From Porphyromonas cangingivalis (GTDB lineage: Bacteria > Bacteroidota > Bacteroidia > Bacteroidales > Porphyromonadaceae), in assembly GCF_900638305.1 (NCBI RefSeq), contig NZ_LR134506.1, positions 124,001-188,000 on the forward strand: a DNA stretch of 64,000 nucleotides, written 5' to 3'. Of the stretch, positions 12,751 through 63,858 are shown one piece after another. Below the pieces are notes generated by a model. That model worked only from the letters and a program-made list of their open reading frames with translations. It was not told the DNA's origin and did no database searches. The translations under genes were made by a program, and so were the position numbers. The first letter of the stretch is position 1. Every line of letters starts with the position of its first letter.

Positions 12751-12839
12751 TAAAAAAGTCGTTAGACTTGTTTCATCGATTCGTAAGACTTTCGTCATCG
12801 AATCTTACGACCTTTTTTGTCGTCTCCTAAGACTTTTTT
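12751..12839. repeat. intergenic repeat, family 1 copy (GTCGTAAGA units)
   Basis: Within the gene-free stretch 12419-12974 this block begins with A6 and GTCGTTAGAC and continues with three more imperfect, partly inverted units (TCGTAAGAC, CATCGAATCTTACGAC, GTCTCCTAAGAC), ending in T6. Related blocks occur at 28108, 56986 and 63776, with a degenerate one near 52341. I see no gene in the rest of the gap; an ORF at 12638-12847 runs through the repeat and is not credible. Confidence 0.75.
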
Positions 12840-20685: not shown

Positions 20686-20884
20686 CTATTGAGGTTCCCC
20701 AATTTTGAGAGTGCTATCAGTCTCTCATGAGAATGGGATTAAAAGGGAAGTCGGTGCAAAGCCGACACTGTCCCCGTAGCCGTAAGATCATCATGGTACT
20801 GTACGATGCCACTGTCTTTGGATAAAAGAGGATGGGAAGGCGCAGTACTTCGGATCGAGTCGGAAGACCTGCCTCTTTAGGATA
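20686..20884 (+). ncRNA. cobalamin (B12) riboswitch
   Basis: The conserved blocks of the cobalamin aptamer are present in order: GGTTCC (20693), TTAAAAGGGAA, CGGTGCAAAGCCG, TGTCCCCGTAGCCGTAA, CCACTG, GGGAAGG and the B12 box GTCGGAAGACCTGCC ending at 20873. GAGG before and CCTC after can close P1. This aptamer binds adenosyl- or other cobalamins and lowers expression of the downstream genes. It sits 182 bases before the BtuF-like start codon and fixes the corrin character of the transport operon. Confidence 0.96.
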
Positions 20885-21005
20885 GCCGATGTTTCTCGGG
20901 TTGAAGAGACTGATGATGACATTAGTATGTGGAGAGTGTCTGCCTTTATTCGTCATATAATTGGCGAGAGTGCAGTATGTCCTACTACCAAATGTTTGTT
21001 TCGTC

Positions 21006-28107: not shown

Positions 28108-28200
28108 CGAAAAAAGTCGTAGGACTCGATGACGAAAGTCGTAAGATTCGATGACGAAGATCGTAAGACTCGATAATGAAGGTCCTATAACTTGATTTTT
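28108..28200. repeat. intergenic 22-base tandem repeat, family 1 copy
   Basis: Starting 7 bases after the CobN stop, about four tandem units of 22 bases each read GTCGTAAGA-C/T-TCGATGACGAAA, decaying to the right, and the block starts with A6. It splits the corrinoid gene cluster. The rest of the gap (28201-28304) is AT-rich, with no convincing -7 box. Confidence 0.8.
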
Positions 28201-28304
28201 ATCCTTAGGCATCCCTCACTTGATCGAAAAATTTTATGCCAAACTTACACTAAAGAAAAATAAACAATGCTATCTGCAACCCATATAATAATCAAATCTC
28301 TTAT

Positions 28305-52274: not shown

Positions 52275-52340
52275 CTACGGATATCAAATGCTGCGTGGGT
52301 TAGACATAAGCTGATCGTCAATCCAAGCCTGATCCCTAAA

Positions 52341-52400
52341 TCAAGTCATATCAACTTCGTCATCAAGTCATACAATCCTATTCTTCGAGGGTGCGATACT
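52341..52400. repeat. degenerate family 1 repeat in the lptD/ABC-F gap
   Basis: TTCGTCATCAAGTCATACAA (52356-52375) matches the reverse form of the family 1 unit (TTCGTCATCGAATCTTACGA) at 16 of 20 positions, with weaker similarity on either side. The rest of the gap 52275-52572 holds scattered AAGT/ACTT-rich sequence and no gene or tRNA that I can see. Confidence 0.45.
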
Positions 52401-56985: not shown

Positions 56986-57050
56986 TAAAAAAAGTCGTTA
57001 AACTCGTTGCATCGAGTTTAACGACTTTCGTCATCGAGTGGTAAGATTTG
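56986..57050. repeat. intergenic repeat, family 1 copy with perfect hairpin
   Basis: A7 followed by GTCGTTAAACTCG, a 5-base loop and its exact reverse complement, then TTTCGTCATCGAGTGGTAAGAT. It lies in the 512-base gap between the DHOD-like gene and aspA; apart from this block and the aspA terminator I see no feature in 56710-57221. Confidence 0.75.
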
Positions 57051-57221: not shown

Positions 57222-58664
57222 TCAATCTTCGTAACCGAGGTCATCCAACTGCTTGATGTCAAGGTGTACGGGTTTGATCATGTTCTCAGGAGCGAGGATC
57301 ATGTCCAATTCAGCCTGAGTGAGGATGCCCTTTTCGATAACAATCTCAGTGATGGGTCGGCTGGTTGCAATGGCTTCCTTGGCGATCTTTGTAGAGTTCT
57401 TGTAGCCGATGTATGGGTTGAGTGCGGTCACGATACCAAGGCTTTCGCTGACGTGTCTGCGACAACGTTCTTCATTAGCCTTGATGCCTACGATACAGAG
57501 ATCACGGAGGGTGTCAAGGCCGACCATAAGGTAGTCTGACGACTCGAAGCAGCACTGTGCCATGACAGGCTCCATCGCATTGAGCTCCATTTGTGCAGAC
57601 TCGCCTGCCATAGTGACACATACGTCGTTACCTATGATCTTGTATGCAATCTGAGATGCTACTTCGGGGATCACGGGGTTGACCTTACCCGGCATGATGG
57701 AAGAGCCCGGCTGACGTGCCGGAAGCTCGATCTCACCGAGACCGCAGCGTGGTCCCGAAGAAAGGAGGCGTAGGTCATTGCTAATCTTGCTCACCTTGAC
57801 TGCGATGCGCTTGAGGGCTTGTGAATAACCGATGAGGTGTGAGGTGTCTGATGTCGCACCTACAAGATCTTCGGCAAGTTTGATGTCCCAGCCTGTGATG
57901 TCCTTGATAGCTTGAGTGCATTCTTCAGCATAACCCGGTACTGCACAGATCCCTGTACCGATAGCTGTGGCTCCCATGTTGATGGTGAGGAGCTGTTCGG
58001 CAGCATGGCGGAGGTTAGGGATTTCTTCTTCGATGATCGAAGCGAAGCCGTTGAATGTCTGACCAAGGGTCATAGGTACAGCATCTTGGAGCTGTGTGCG
58101 ACCCATCTTGATGACGTGTGCAAATTCCTTGCCCTTGACTCTCAATGCTGCAACGAATGACTTCATGTGTTCGATCACACGGAGGTGTGTCGCATAGAGA
58201 CCCAAGTGGATGGCTGTGGGATAAGCATCGTTGGTAGACTGAGATGCGTTGACGTGGTCGTTGGGTGAGCAGTGTTTGTAGTGACCGCGCTCGTGCCCAA
58301 GGATCTCGAGAGCTCTGTTGGCGATGACCTCATTGGCATTCATGTTGGTTGAAGTACCTGCACCTCCCTGGATCATGTCGATAGGGAAGTGTTCGTGGTG
58401 TTTGCCTTCGAGGAGTTCTTGACAAGCCTTTTCGATGGCATCGGCACACTCATGGGTGATCACGCCGAGCTTACCATTTGCTCTGGCAGCCCCCATCTTG
58501 GTCCATGCGAGACCGTGGATGAAGAGTGGGTAGTTGTTGAGCTTGAATGGTGAGATGTTGAAGTTGTCCATAGCTCTCAGAGTCTGGACACCATAAAGTA
58601 CGCTGTTGGGAAGTTCTCTGGAGCCGAGAAGGTCGCTTTCGACCCTTACTTTGTTATTTTCCAT
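57222..58664 (-). CDS. aspA: aspartate ammonia-lyase
   Basis: Converts aspartate to fumarate and ammonia, feeding fumarate respiration in anaerobes. At 480 residues it belongs to the fumarase/aspartase superfamily, with the signature GSSIMPGKVNP holding the catalytic Ser loop, ASQSTNDAYPTAI, GGAGTSTNMNANEVIANRA and GRTQLQDAVPMTLGQ. ESDLLGSRELP at the N-terminus is typical of AspA rather than fumarase (which reads ERDTFG). The ATG at 58664 gives the usual N-terminus. It stands alone, with its own terminator. Confidence 0.93.
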   Translation of the reverse strand: MENNKVRVESDLLGSRELPNSVLYGVQTLRAMDNFNISPFKLNNYPLFIHGLAWTKMGAARANGKLGVITHECADAIEKACQELLEGKHHEHFPIDMIQGGAGTSTNMNANEVIANRALEILGHERGHYKHCSPNDHVNASQSTNDAYPTAIHLGLYATHLRVIEHMKSFVAALRVKGKEFAHVIKMGRTQLQDAVPMTLGQTFNGFASIIEEEIPNLRHAAEQLLTINMGATAIGTGICAVPGYAEECTQAIKDITGWDIKLAEDLVGATSDTSHLIGYSQALKRIAVKVSKISNDLRLLSSGPRCGLGEIELPARQPGSSIMPGKVNPVIPEVASQIAYKIIGNDVCVTMAGESAQMELNAMEPVMAQCCFESSDYLMVGLDTLRDLCIVGIKANEERCRRHVSESLGIVTALNPYIGYKNSTKIAKEAIATSRPITEIVIEKGILTQAELDMILAPENMIKPVHLDIKQLDDLGYED

Positions 58665-58741
58665 TACTAAATGAAATGACAATAAGTGTTAGGAGGCTTT
58701 CGTCAGATCGCCTTCATGATACTGTGATTGTCGGTCGGCAC

Positions 58742-58777
58742 GCTACCTATGCTTCACAGAAGTGAGACATAGGTAGC
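58742..58777. other. intergenic hairpin between DUF1015 and aspA
   Basis: A perfect 10-base inverted repeat (GCTACCTATG and its complement) with a 16-base loop that can pair further. It lies just after the DUF1015 stop. There is no T-run, so it may be a processing or stabilising hairpin rather than a classical terminator. Confidence 0.55.
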
Positions 58778-58793
58778 ATGAGGCCGAGAGATA

Positions 58794-60050
58794 TTATTTG
58801 TCGTTCTCTAAGGTGTGAACGATAAGACCTGAACGTAGCTTAGGCTCAAACCATGTTGTCTTAGGAGGCATGATGTTGCCTGAGTCTGCGATGTCCATGA
58901 GTTGCTTCATTGACACGGGGTAGAGAGCAAGTGCTGCTACCATCTCACCACTATCGACACGCTTCTTGAGTTCGCCAAGACCACGGATACCACCCACGAA
59001 GTCGATACGCTTAGAAGTGCGGAGATCCTTGATGTCGAGGATCTCATCGAGGATGAGGTTAGAAGAGATAGTCACATCGAGGACGCCGATAGGGTCGTTG
59101 TCGTTGTAAGTACCTTCTTTAGCTGTAAGTGAGTACCACTTACCTCCCAAGTAGAGTGCGAAGTTGTGAAGCTTGGCAGGCTTGTACTCTGCTGTGCCCT
59201 TTTCTTCGACGATGAAGTTCTTTTCGAGTGCCTTGAGGAAGTCTGCTTCTGACAAGCCGTTGAGATCCTTCACGACACGGTTGTAGTCGATGATGGTGAG
59301 GTGGCTTGCCGGGAAACATACAGCCATGAAGTAGTTGTACTCTTCGTCACCTGTGTGATTTGGGTTTGCCTTGGCTTTCTCTGCACCTACGAGAGCCGCT
59401 GCTGCGGATCTGTGGTGACCGTCAGCGATGTATAGGTATGGCATCGCAGCGAAAGCCTTGGTGATGGTCTCGATGTCGTTCTTGTCATCGACGACCCAGA
59501 AGTGGTGACCGAAGCCATCGAGTTGAGCTACGAAGTCGTAGATTGGCTCAGTAGCTTTGTATTTGTTGATGATGCGTTCCAGCTCTGCATTGTCTGGGAA
59601 CGCAAGGAATACAGGCTCGATGTTGGCATTGTTGACGCGTACGTGTTTCATACGGTCTTCTTCCTTGTCCTTACGGGTAAGCTCATGCTTCTTGATGACG
59701 TTGTTCATGTAGTCATCTACATTAGCTCCTACGACAATACCATATTGGGTCTTGCCGTTCATTGTCTGAGCATAGATGTAATAGCATGCCTCAGAGTCCT
59801 GAACCAACCAGCCCTTGTCTTGGAACATCTTGAAGTTCTCGGCAGCCTTAGCGTACACATCTTCATCATGCTCGTCCTTACCAACAGGGAAGTCGATTTC
59901 AGGACGGATGATGTGGTAGAGAGACTTTTCGTTGCCCGCAGCTTCTTCGCGAGCCTCATCACTATTTAGGACGTCGTATGGACGTGATGCTACTTGTGTT
60001 ACAAGATCTTGGGGAGGACGAAATCCTCTAAAAGGTTTTACTCTTGCCAT
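58794..60050 (-). CDS. DUF1015 family protein with DGHHR motif
   Basis: A 418-residue soluble protein of the DUF1015 family (VKPFRGFRPP, SRPYDVLNSDEAR, KHELTRKDKEEDR). ADGHHRSAAA (Asp210 to Arg214) resembles the nucleotide-binding loop of the ParB/sulfiredoxin-like fold, in which free-serine kinases of the SerK/SbnI type are found. It is the third gene after serC and serA on the same strand, about 100 bases after serA. Such linkage is common in this phylum, so a role in serine or phosphoserine metabolism is plausible. The reaction is not established, and I name no gene. Confidence 0.85.
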   Translation of the reverse strand: MARVKPFRGFRPPQDLVTQVASRPYDVLNSDEAREEAAGNEKSLYHIIRPEIDFPVGKDEHDEDVYAKAAENFKMFQDKGWLVQDSEACYYIYAQTMNGKTQYGIVVGANVDDYMNNVIKKHELTRKDKEEDRMKHVRVNNANIEPVFLAFPDNAELERIINKYKATEPIYDFVAQLDGFGHHFWVVDDKNDIETITKAFAAMPYLYIADGHHRSAAAALVGAEKAKANPNHTGDEEYNYFMAVCFPASHLTIIDYNRVVKDLNGLSEADFLKALEKNFIVEEKGTAEYKPAKLHNFALYLGGKWYSLTAKEGTYNDNDPIGVLDVTISSNLILDEILDIKDLRTSKRIDFVGGIRGLGELKKRVDSGEMVAALALYPVSMKQLMDIADSGNIMPPKTTWFEPKLRSGLIVHTLENDK

Positions 60051-60154
60051 TGTATTTGTTGTTTATGATATGACGAATAGAGGCAGGTGCGACCGACAGT
60101 AATGATTTACTGCCGGTCGACCCTTTCTCAAATATTATTCTGAAGTGAGTACAA

Positions 60155-61078
60155 TCACTTATTGACTCTGAACTTAGCTTCACCTGTTTGGATGAACGCA
60201 GCGATCTGCTTGGCTGCTGCCATACCTGCGTTGGTGTTGGCTTCGGCTGTCTGAGCACCCATCTTCTTTGCTGTCGCAAAGTATTGGTTGGGGAACTTTT
60301 CGACAAGCTCAGCTTCACAGTCAGGCTTCACGTCAGTGAGGTAAGCAAGGTCAGGTCTTTCGCTGAGCACACGGAGAAGGTCAGCTTCGTTGATGAGGTC
60401 CTTACGAGCGATATTCACGAGGATAGCACCCTTAGGCATACGGCTTAGCAAGTTGTAGTCGATCATCTTCTTTGTGTTTGCGGCAGCAGGCATTGCCAAT
60501 ACCATCACGTCACAAAGACCGAACATAAGTTCTCTATCGTTGAAAAACTTGAAACCGTCCTTTACGAAGTAGTTTGCAGGAGTCAATCTCTGGAAACCAT
60601 AGACCTCCATACCAAATCCTTGACCGATGCGTGCTACGTTCTGTCCGATGTTGCCATAAGACATCACACCAAGCTTCTTGCCCATAAGTTCGCTACCGGT
60701 CTTGCCGTTGAAACCTGTCCTTACGTGGAAGAGGAGCATTGCGAACACAAGCTCTGCAACAGCATTTGAGTTTTGACCGGGTGTGTTCATCACACATACG
60801 TTGTGCTTTGTGGCAGCTTCGCAGTCTACGTTGTCATAACCTGCACCTGCACGCACGACGATCTTGAGGTTCTTGGCAGCTTCGATGACTTCAGCATCGA
60901 TGATGTCACTACGTACGATGATACCTTCGACATCCTTTACTGCGTCAAGGAGTTGACTCTTTTCTGTATATTTTTCGAGCTTTACTACCTCGAAACCGTT
61001 AGCCTCAAGGATCTCGCTGATCTGAGCGACTGCTACGGGAGCGAAAGGCTTTTCAGTTGCAATCAATACTTTTGCCAT
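60155..61078 (-). CDS. serA: D-3-phosphoglycerate dehydrogenase (short form)
   Basis: First step of phosphorylated serine synthesis: 3-phosphoglycerate to 3-phosphohydroxypyruvate. The 307-residue protein has the D-2-hydroxyacid dehydrogenase fold with MSYGNIGQNVARIGQGFGM as the NAD loop and NIARKDLINEADLL near the catalytic Arg/Glu region. It lacks the C-terminal ACT and ASB regulatory domains of long SerA proteins, so serine feedback through ACT is not expected. Placement 34 bases after serC supports the call over other hydroxyacid dehydrogenases. Confidence 0.93.
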   Translation of the reverse strand: MAKVLIATEKPFAPVAVAQISEILEANGFEVVKLEKYTEKSQLLDAVKDVEGIIVRSDIIDAEVIEAAKNLKIVVRAGAGYDNVDCEAATKHNVCVMNTPGQNSNAVAELVFAMLLFHVRTGFNGKTGSELMGKKLGVMSYGNIGQNVARIGQGFGMEVYGFQRLTPANYFVKDGFKFFNDRELMFGLCDVMVLAMPAAANTKKMIDYNLLSRMPKGAILVNIARKDLINEADLLRVLSERPDLAYLTDVKPDCEAELVEKFPNQYFATAKKMGAQTAEANTNAGMAAAKQIAAFIQTGEAKFRVNK

Positions 61079-61112
61079 GACTGAATGATTTTACGGATTA
61101 GTAGTCAATGAA

Positions 61113-62192
61113 TTAGAATTGCTTTTCGAAGTCTTGCATACACTTTACAAGAGCCTCTACAGACTCACGTGGGCAAGCGTTGTAGATAGATGCACGGAAA
61201 CCACCTACTGAGCGGTGACCCTTGATACCTACCATACCTGCAGCCTTTGCGAAGTCCATGAATGCTGCTTCCTTGTCCTTGTGCTCTTCAGCCATTACGA
61301 AACAAACGTTCATGAGCGAACGGTCTTCCTTAGCTGCTGTTCCGACGAACATCTTGTTGCGGTCGATTTCGTTGTAAAGGAGTTCTGCTTTTTCCTTGTT
61401 GAGCTTGTGCATTGCTTCAAGACCACCAAGGTTCTTCACCCACTTTAGAGTTTCGTGCATCACGAAGATAGAGAATACAGGAGGAGTGTTGAACATTGAA
61501 CGATCCTTTTCTGCTTCACCGATGTGTGTACGGTAGTCTACCATGGTTTGGAGCTTGCGGTCTACCTTGCCGAGGAGATCTTCACGTACGATGACGAAAG
61601 TAACACCTGCAGGTCCTACGTTCTTCTGGGCACCACCATAGATGATACCGTACTTGCTCACGTCTACAGGACGGCTGAGGATGTCAGAAGACATATCTGC
61701 GATGAGAGTCACAGGGCTGTCGATGTCTTCGTGGATTTCTGTACCGTAGATGGTGTTGTTTGTTGTGATGTGGAAGTAGTCAACATCTGTAGGGATGGTG
61801 TATCCTTTTGGTACGTAAGAGTAGTTCTTGTCTTCAGAAGAAGCAACGATTTCTACATCACCATAGAACTTAGCTTCCTTGGCAGCCTTCTTTGCCCATA
61901 CCCCTGTTTGGAGGTAAGCAGCCTTCTTGTTGAGCAAGTTTGCAGGTACGTGGAAGAACTGAGTGCTTGCGCCACCACCGAGGAATAGTACTTTGTAGTT
62001 GTCAGGGATATTGAGGAGTTCGCGCCATAGATCTGCTGTTTCCTTCATGATGCGTTCCCAACCCGGAGTACGGTGAGATATCTCAAGGATACCGATACCG
62101 GTGTTGTCAAAATCACGGATAGCTTCGATTGCAGACTCTACTGCTTCGCGAGGGAGGACACATGGTCCGGCGTTGAAATTGTGCTTTTTCAT
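61113..62192 (-). CDS. serC: phosphoserine aminotransferase
   Basis: PLP enzyme that converts 3-phosphohydroxypyruvate and glutamate to phosphoserine and 2-oxoglutarate; it also serves PLP synthesis in some bacteria. Family features are [45 protein letters not shown], and the PLP lysine in [11 protein letters not shown]. Length is 359 residues. It is the first gene of serC-serA-DUF1015. The rarA stop lies 44 bases upstream on the same strand, so the ser genes may be read from rarA or from a promoter in that short gap. Confidence 0.96.
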
Positions 62193-62236
62193 TGTTGAAA
62201 ATTGTTTGAATAAATTTTAGTTTATAAATATAGTAA

Positions 62237-63594
62237 TTACTTTTCAGAATTATCGTTCCTGTTTGTCTCGATTTGCTGACCTTGAGAGGCAGTTGCCCTT
62301 ATTGGCTCACCATACATCTTGTGCATGGTGTTGAGGTACTCGACCATACGTATCTCTTGTGGTTGATCGGTGGGTGTCCAGAAGGTCATCTGCTCCATCT
62401 CCTTCGGCATGTATTGTTGAGGAGCGTAGTGCCCCTTGTATGAGTGAGGGTAGATGTAGCCCACTCCATAGCCCAATTCGGACATCAGTTCGGTCGGTGC
62501 ATTGCGAAGGTGCATTGGGACCGGATGGGCAGGGTTACTGCGTACGTACCCCAATGCTTTGTCTATGGCCTCATAGGCACTGTTGCTCTTAGGGCTCGTC
62601 GCCAGATATATGGTCGCTTGTGCCAGGGGAATGCGACCCTCCGGCCATCCGATCTTTTCTATCGCATCGAATGCCGCTTGGGCGATCAGGAGTCCATTGG
62701 GATTCGCAAGGCCTATATCCTCGGCTGCAAGTATTACCAGTCGTCTGGCGATAAACTTGGGATCCTCTCCACCCTCGATCATTCGTGCCAACCAATACAA
62801 TGCTGCGTCGGGATGACTTCCTCTGACCGACTTGATGAAGGCAGAGATGATGTCGTAGTGCATCTCGCCGCCCTTGTCATAGACCGCCGGGTTTTGTTGA
62901 AGGTGTCTTGCCACATTTTCGTTCGAGATGATCACTGTCTTTGACTTCTGCGCCTCCGGTGTCAGTGTCAGGAGTTCGAGGATGTTCAGAAGTTTCCGCG
63001 CATCACCCCCGGCAGCCGCAAAGAGGGCATCTGTCTCCTCTATCTTAAATTCGAATGCCTGCATGAGTGAGTCCGTCTCTATTGTTTTGTCCAAGAGACG
63101 TCTCATCGCATCTGCATCAAGAGACTTGAGTGTGAAGACTCTGCAACGGGAGAGTAGGGGACGAATGATCTCGAACGAAGGATTTTCGGTCGTCGCCCCT
63201 ATGAGGGTGACGATTCCACGTTCGACAGCATGAAGGAGGGAGTCTTGTTGGGACTTGTTGAAGCGGTGTATCTCGTCGATGAAGAGTATGGGCGTGCCTC
63301 CCGAAAAGAGATTGTTCTTATTTTCTTCTGTCATCTTCAGTACATCACGCACATCCTTGACGCCCGAAGAGACAGCACTGAGGGTATAGAACTGTAGCCC
63401 AAGGTTTTTTGAAATGATGTGAGCCAATGTTGTCTTGCCCACACCCGGAGGCCCCCATAGTATGAAAGAGCGTAAAATCCCCCTGAGAGCATCTCATACA
63501 GCGGTGCTCCCGGCGCAACCAAATGCTCTTGCCCTACATAGGAGTCAAGAGACTGAGGTCGCATTCTTTCTGCTAAAGGTGCTAGTGAGGTCAT
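62237..63594 (-). pseudogene. rarA: replication-associated recombination protein RarA (MgsA), frameshifted as sequenced
   Basis: An AAA+ ATPase that acts at stalled replication forks. The first part (from the ATG at 63594) reads [23 protein letters not shown], the normal RarA start, then leaves frame at a run of five Cs on the plus strand (63479-63483). Adding one base restores [23 protein letters not shown], joining the N-terminus to the downstream ORF (63442-62237). That ORF carries the Walker B region ILFIDEIHRFNKSQQD, sensor TTENPSFEI, and the C-terminal MgsA domain (GEDPKFIARRLVILAAEDIGLANP). All other parts are intact and conserved, so a homopolymer sequencing error or a very recent mutation is likely. 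True gene span is about 452 codons. Confidence 0.9.
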
Positions 63595-63775
63595 TTCCAG
63601 TACAAAGGTCGATGTTACTTTTCGCTATTCCAAATTATTTGGCATGTTTTTTTGAACGTTTTGAGAATGCTTTCATTTTCAAGAATGTATTTGTCTCTTT
63701 CACCTCTTGACTTTCGTGTGGTCGGTCGAGTTTTGTGTCTCTTGACTCGTGTCTCCTTGTCTGTCTCTGTTCTCT

Positions 63776-63858
63776 AAAAAAAAGTCGTAGGACTTGATCT
63801 CGAAAGTCGTAAGATTCGATGACGAAAGTCGTAAGATTCGTTTTCGAGCTTTCTACGA
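63776..63858. repeat. intergenic 22-base tandem repeat, family 1 copy
   Basis: A8, then three tandem units: GTCGTAGGACTTGATCTCGA, then twice GTCGTAAGATTCG with GATGACGAAA between, ending in TTTTCGAGCTTTCTACGAC in reverse orientation. It lies upstream of rarA in the gene-free stretch 63595-64000, which otherwise holds only the plus-strand promoter at 63930. Confidence 0.8.

Follow-up and report, generated by a model that had tools for sequence, protein, structure and literature searches.

The window, a 64,000-nucleotide stretch of the Porphyromonas cangingivalis genome (positions 124001-188000 of its single 2.40-Mb contig), carries short elements built from 22-bp units at five places (Table 1). 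One of these elements starts nine bases past the stop of the CobN gene (28101) and corresponds to the match of our profile R1 at 152111-152198 of the genome, and another is located 3′ of the gene for aspartate ammonia-lyase, aspA. A preliminary description of this DNA had listed 22-base repeats at 12751-12839, 28108-28200, 56986-57050 and 63776-63858, with a further site near 52356, and all five places were confirmed, the last as a degenerate copy. Four unit matches with three or fewer mismatches are present in the window, for which the chance expectation is 0.00. The degenerate unit at 52356-52377 reaches 18.2 bits, and shuffling an equal amount of sequence produced none of 14 bits or more. 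The remnant that includes it differs by two mismatches from the unit type of a sister species considered below. The sole match above the gathering score in an Rfam scan of the window is a cobalamin riboswitch (RF00174, 93 bits) at 20701-20890 on the + strand, in the stretch upstream of the CobN gene, and none was obtained at the repeats.

Table 1. Copies of the repeat element in the 64,000-nucleotide window.
Feature	Position in window	Strand	Details
Element, hairpin (++-) form, 88 bp	12752..12839	-	A6 12752-12757, T6 12834-12839; R1 E=2e-11
Element, direct (+++) form	28110..28201	+	A6 28110-28115; units 28115-28136, 28137-28158, 28159-28180
Degenerate tail of the 28110..28201 element	28181-28200		GGTCCTATAACTTGATTTTT
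Degenerate two-unit remnant	52336..52377	-	PWM 18.2 bits
Element 3′ of aspA (57222-58664, -)	56987 to about 57074	-	R1 E=5e-12
Element, direct (+++) form	63776 to about 63866	+	A8; units at 63783, 63805, 63827; tail CTTTCTACGAC

Structurally, the element of P. cangingivalis consists of an A6 run, three consecutive units with the consensus AGTCGTWAGAYTCGATGACGAA, and the tail TCCTAYGACTTT, which is the left end of the element in inverted orientation, for a total of about 86-100 bp. Terminal inverted repeats of the kind that characterize MITEs are therefore present. When the end (AAAAAGTCNTAGGA) was used alone as the query, left and right ends were recovered as inverted pairs spaced exactly 86 bp apart, and both ends are intact in some copies, not all. 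The three units are either all direct (+++, 27 copies in this genome) or have the third unit inverted (++-, 21 copies here and 61 in the sister species). The ++- copies form a strong hairpin that usually ends in T6, and a run of T5 or longer follows the inverted unit in 63 of the 79 such elements whose tail could be scored. Two inverted palindromic units that fold as a hairpin, as in REPINs, are thus seen in the ++- form and are absent from the +++ form, which lacks a tight hairpin. In the element beyond aspA, the stem proved to be longer than the perfect 13 bp reported previously: positions 56991-57006 and 57013-57028 pair perfectly over 16 bp around a 6-nt loop, with T7 on the - strand (fold z about -6). 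The RNA fold z of the 12752..12839 element is about -3 on each strand.

The spacing of the modules is rigid. Across both species, units 1 and 2 are 22 bp apart in 82 of 82 ++- elements, and units 2 and 3 are 18 bp apart across the inversion in 81 of the 82. In both genomes the core of the unit is much more conserved than unit positions 17-22. The tandem repeats of variable copy number and orientation that had been described are real, but they belong to an element whose layout is fixed, with three units between inverted ends, and do not make up a free-form tandem array. Because the units abut at 22 bp with no unique spacers, CRISPR is ruled out, as the preliminary description had also held. A few copies contain four to eight units. 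Among them is an array of eight near-identical units at 812818-812994 of the genome, whose members vary at a single position (GATGATG or GATAATG) in a partly alternating order, and which looks like the local amplification of a two-unit block.

The suggestion that the window samples a genome-wide family was borne out by a search of the whole genome, which gave 109 unit matches at three or fewer mismatches compared to one for a reversed-pattern control. With a position matrix derived from 61 stretches, 214 units score above 14 bits, whereas shuffling those stretches leaves none, and profile R1 gives 127 matches. The unit matrix and a whole-element profile together define about 109 distinct element sites. 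Copies at unrelated places align over 85-98 bp of the element alone and have unrelated flanks, except where a segment has been duplicated locally near 1.78 Mb. Near-identity, at 98-99%, was seen for two pairs of copies (1649188/1655707 and 1583393/1640867).

Gene predictions for assessing placement were made in this analysis with a hexamer-based approach. None of 67 examined elements in P. cangingivalis and none of 94 in the sister species overlaps a predicted gene, in agreement with the earlier assignment of the repeats to intergenic DNA. Codirectional, divergent and convergent gaps are occupied roughly according to their length, and the median distance of an element is about 140-150 bp to stops and about 235-245 bp to starts. 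Collinearity between the two species extends over a 6.4-kb block of the window (57226-63663) and stops outside of it, and in both species each end of this block bears an element. Gene adjacency is kept at three of ten gaps with elements, compared to 17 of 25 other gaps of at least 120 bp (p=0.06), and the elements may mark rearrangement breakpoints.

To establish the distribution of the family, we searched a comparison set of 38 genomes from the same bacterial family. The elements are carried in bulk only by P. cangingivalis and its sister species (G001), which are about 80% identical in aligned nucleotide blocks and 88% identical at the aspA region. Related Porphyromonas genomes had been proposed as the place to look for further copies, and profile R1 has at least 150 matches in the sister species and zero to three in each of the other 36 genomes. 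Each of ten other members of the genus has zero or one match, and matches occur in only one of 26 genomes of the family's other genus, which has three. The best of those three (genome G035) has an E value of 2e-7, and a single match in genome G008 has an E value of 4e-5. Bulk carriage is therefore a property of the two-species clade. No element match was found in plasmids, phages, IMG/VR or GTDB contigs, collections from which the home and near genomes were possibly left out.

The two species share the architecture and differ in the unit. No unit of the P. cangingivalis type is found in the sister genome at two or fewer mismatches, while that genome has 62 matches to RGTTGTCTRACTTGATNACGAA. 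Nearly every sister unit reads AGTTGTCTAACTTGAT where P. cangingivalis has AGTCGTTAGACTCGAT, so that the unit types are GTTGTCTAACTTGAT and GTCGTTAGACTCGAT, respectively. About five elements of P. cangingivalis carry the sister-type unit GTTGTCTAACTTGAT (1464266, 1465847, 1557913, 1919515 and 2329888), which indicates that the switch is near-complete and not total.

The same difference holds at sites that the species have in common. At 115399, in a divergent intergenic region that can be aligned on both sides, both species have an element (-3 and +7 bp). The aspA 3′ site (180993) and the site at 1195818 each have an element in both species with one flank aligned (-3 and 0 bp, respectively), and at the former the distance from the aspartate ammonia-lyase gene matches between the species. 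At all three sites, each copy conforms to the unit type that prevails in its genome, and the core identity of the orthologous pair at 115399 is 57%. More broadly, identity is 0.78-0.81 between non-orthologous copies within a genome and 0.58 between species, and a tree of 45 copies, whose rows were picked with species-specific profiles, splits by species with support of 99/99. Strict orthologous sites with an element in both species number only three or four, and most element sites are not common to both. A sister element lies beside 15 of 33 mapped flanks of P. cangingivalis elements, compared to 17 of 68 gaps that lack one in P. cangingivalis, and the positional agreement between the species is modest (p=0.04).

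Concerted sequence turnover of a palindromic repeat family between sister species is the best reading of these data. A coordinated change of the unit in nearly all copies requires a homogenising process, for which gene conversion, re-insertion into resident copies, and co-evolution with a binding protein are all candidates. As a more tentative proposal, the family could have been rewritten in nearly all copies, orthologous sites included, through strong concerted evolution of about 100 dispersed elements of about 90 bp, or through co-evolution with a recognising protein or recombinase, in either case without a REP-type transposase.

Given the architecture, the sharp boundaries, the recent copies and the clade restriction, we consider it likely that these repeats are short non-autonomous palindromic mobile-like elements, similar to MITEs or REPINs, with three 22-bp modules between inverted ends and with concerted turnover. 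Presumably, copies would spread in trans via an enzyme that recognises the palindrome or the inverted ends, and resident copies might be overwritten by the currently dominant sequence, through gene conversion or re-insertion, to produce the concerted turnover. Selection against insertion in genes and promoters could give rise to the intergenic restriction and to the larger distance from starts than from stops. Where ++- copies are transcribed, the hairpin and its U-run might cause incidental termination on either strand.

A MITE- or REP-like nature had been among the original suggestions, and the inverted ends, the palindrome and the sharp homology boundaries are consistent with it, but neither a Y1/RAYT gene nor a clear target-site duplication accompanies them. 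The recommended search for a REP-associated transposase (PF01797) gave no matches in the P. cangingivalis genome, while a control search was positive in five of 14 named genomes. A pair of ends at transposon distance, as a parent transposon would have, was not found in this genome at one or no mismatch. Abutting repeats at the elements of P. cangingivalis give a marginal excess (1.82 versus 1.58 shuffled, p=0.04), and sister elements show no target-site duplication. Between the two species, the intergenic DNA is too diverged for a clean empty site to be aligned.

It is unlikely that the elements are instead selected bidirectional transcription terminators or attenuators, in which the hairpin and T6 end the transcripts of flanking genes, even though the T-runs after most inverted units, the perfect hairpin with T7 after aspA and the closer approach to stops than to starts are all consistent with such a role. 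The hairpin arms co-vary, with changes on both sides in 12 of 15 pairs. However, the arms are copies of each other, and co-variation is expected where arms copy one another. Pairing between the non-adjacent units 1 and 3 scores nearly as high, and we therefore rejected co-variation as proof of RNA function. The terminator strand faces an upstream gene 20 versus 9 times in the sister species, but its orientation is random in P. cangingivalis (5 versus 5). In addition, about 30% of elements lie between divergent genes, as intergenic length predicts, both orientations are found, and the +++ forms have no tight hairpin. The attenuator role proposed earlier is possible, with no clear support from placement and orientation. 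Likewise, ++- copies might plausibly act as terminators, although neither their placement nor their orientation gives evidence of selection for this activity.

Less probable still is that the phased units are sites of a sequence-specific DNA-binding protein, nucleoid-associated or regulatory, with the species difference reflecting co-evolution of site and protein. This would fit the unit length and phase, both invariant at 22 bp or about two helical turns, as well as the conserved core, the fact that almost every copy has changed in concert at the same positions, and the mild tendency of elements to cluster toward a switch in GC skew near 1.7 Mb. However, near-identical recent copies and mostly unshared sites resemble a spreading mobile sequence, the elements have no consistent position relative to genes, and no candidate protein was identified. 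Minisatellite slippage alone, meaning simple local tandem duplication, is very improbable, because it could explain the few copies with four to eight units, such as the eight-unit array, but fails for about 109 dispersed copies with common ends, a rigid three-unit length and inverted modules, and is contradicted by the alignment of copies at unrelated places over the element alone.

Among known repeats, MITEs such as the BOX, ERIC and Correia-like modular repeats are non-coding, intergenic and modular and have terminal inverted repeats. The mobile-like element described here shares all of these features, but it differs in that neither a parent IS nor a clear target-site duplication was found and in its sequence turnover at shared sites. 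BrickBuilt of Porphyromonas gingivalis is a MITE with a 23-nt consensus (AGAYCATARTATCCTCTCRTRTG) and IS5-like TIRs (GAGACCTT..), and it has 19 copies of 84-991 bp with up to 22.8 repeats (PMC4596501). Both it and our element are intergenic and MITE-like, belong to the genus Porphyromonas, are restricted to close relatives within it, and combine internal tandem repeats of about 22-23 bp with a leader, a tail and inverted ends. However, the element here is about 90 bp long, with three units, inverted modules and about 109 copies. Identity with BrickBuilt was rejected, as its consensus AGAYCATARTATCCTCTCRTRTG and its GAGACCTT ends have no similarity to our unit consensus when compared by eye. 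BrickBuilt is the closest analogue by design and is unrelated in sequence. Klein et al. also refer to 22-nt repeats of unspecified location in P. gingivalis W83 (PMC4596501), and across the ten other genus members profile R1 found no more than one match.

REPINs and GTAG REPs, which are mobilised by RAYT, are likewise short, palindromic, extragenic and high-copy and form hairpins as ssDNA or RNA (PMC3116915, PMC3733652). The element described here resembles them in its palindromic inverted repeats, extragenic location, high copy number and, in its ++- form, hairpin, but it differs in having no PF01797 gene and no conserved GTAG tag at the hairpin foot, where the letters vary in P. cangingivalis (GTTAG, GTAAG, GTTAA) and read GTCTAA in the sister species. 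The CGTC REPs, including Neisseria dRS3, are palindromic, have no dedicated transposase and have been reported in Bacteroidetes among other phyla (PMC3733652). No dedicated transposase was found here either. However, the 8-9 bp stem, 4-5 nt loop and CCA tail that define that group (PMC3733652) were not observed, and the element instead has 22-bp modules with arms of about 15-16 bp.

Short palindromic repeats are widespread among bacteria, but how they spread and how some 100 dispersed copies remain similar is a largely open question, in particular where there is no REP-type transposase. A pair of sister species that agree in element architecture and in some sites, but not in unit sequence, allows homogenisation to be tested directly. 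The elements also seem to break short-read assemblies. Seven contigs of the sister species (C24, C54, C67, C73, C79, C84 and C90) end in or beside elements, and short-read assemblies therefore probably undercount them. In P. cangingivalis, element density is highest at 1.5-1.8 Mb, close to the GC-skew switch (Rayleigh p about 0.008). This switch and the directions of four of the five rRNA operons suggest a replication origin near 1.7 Mb, although dnaA is located at 328-816.
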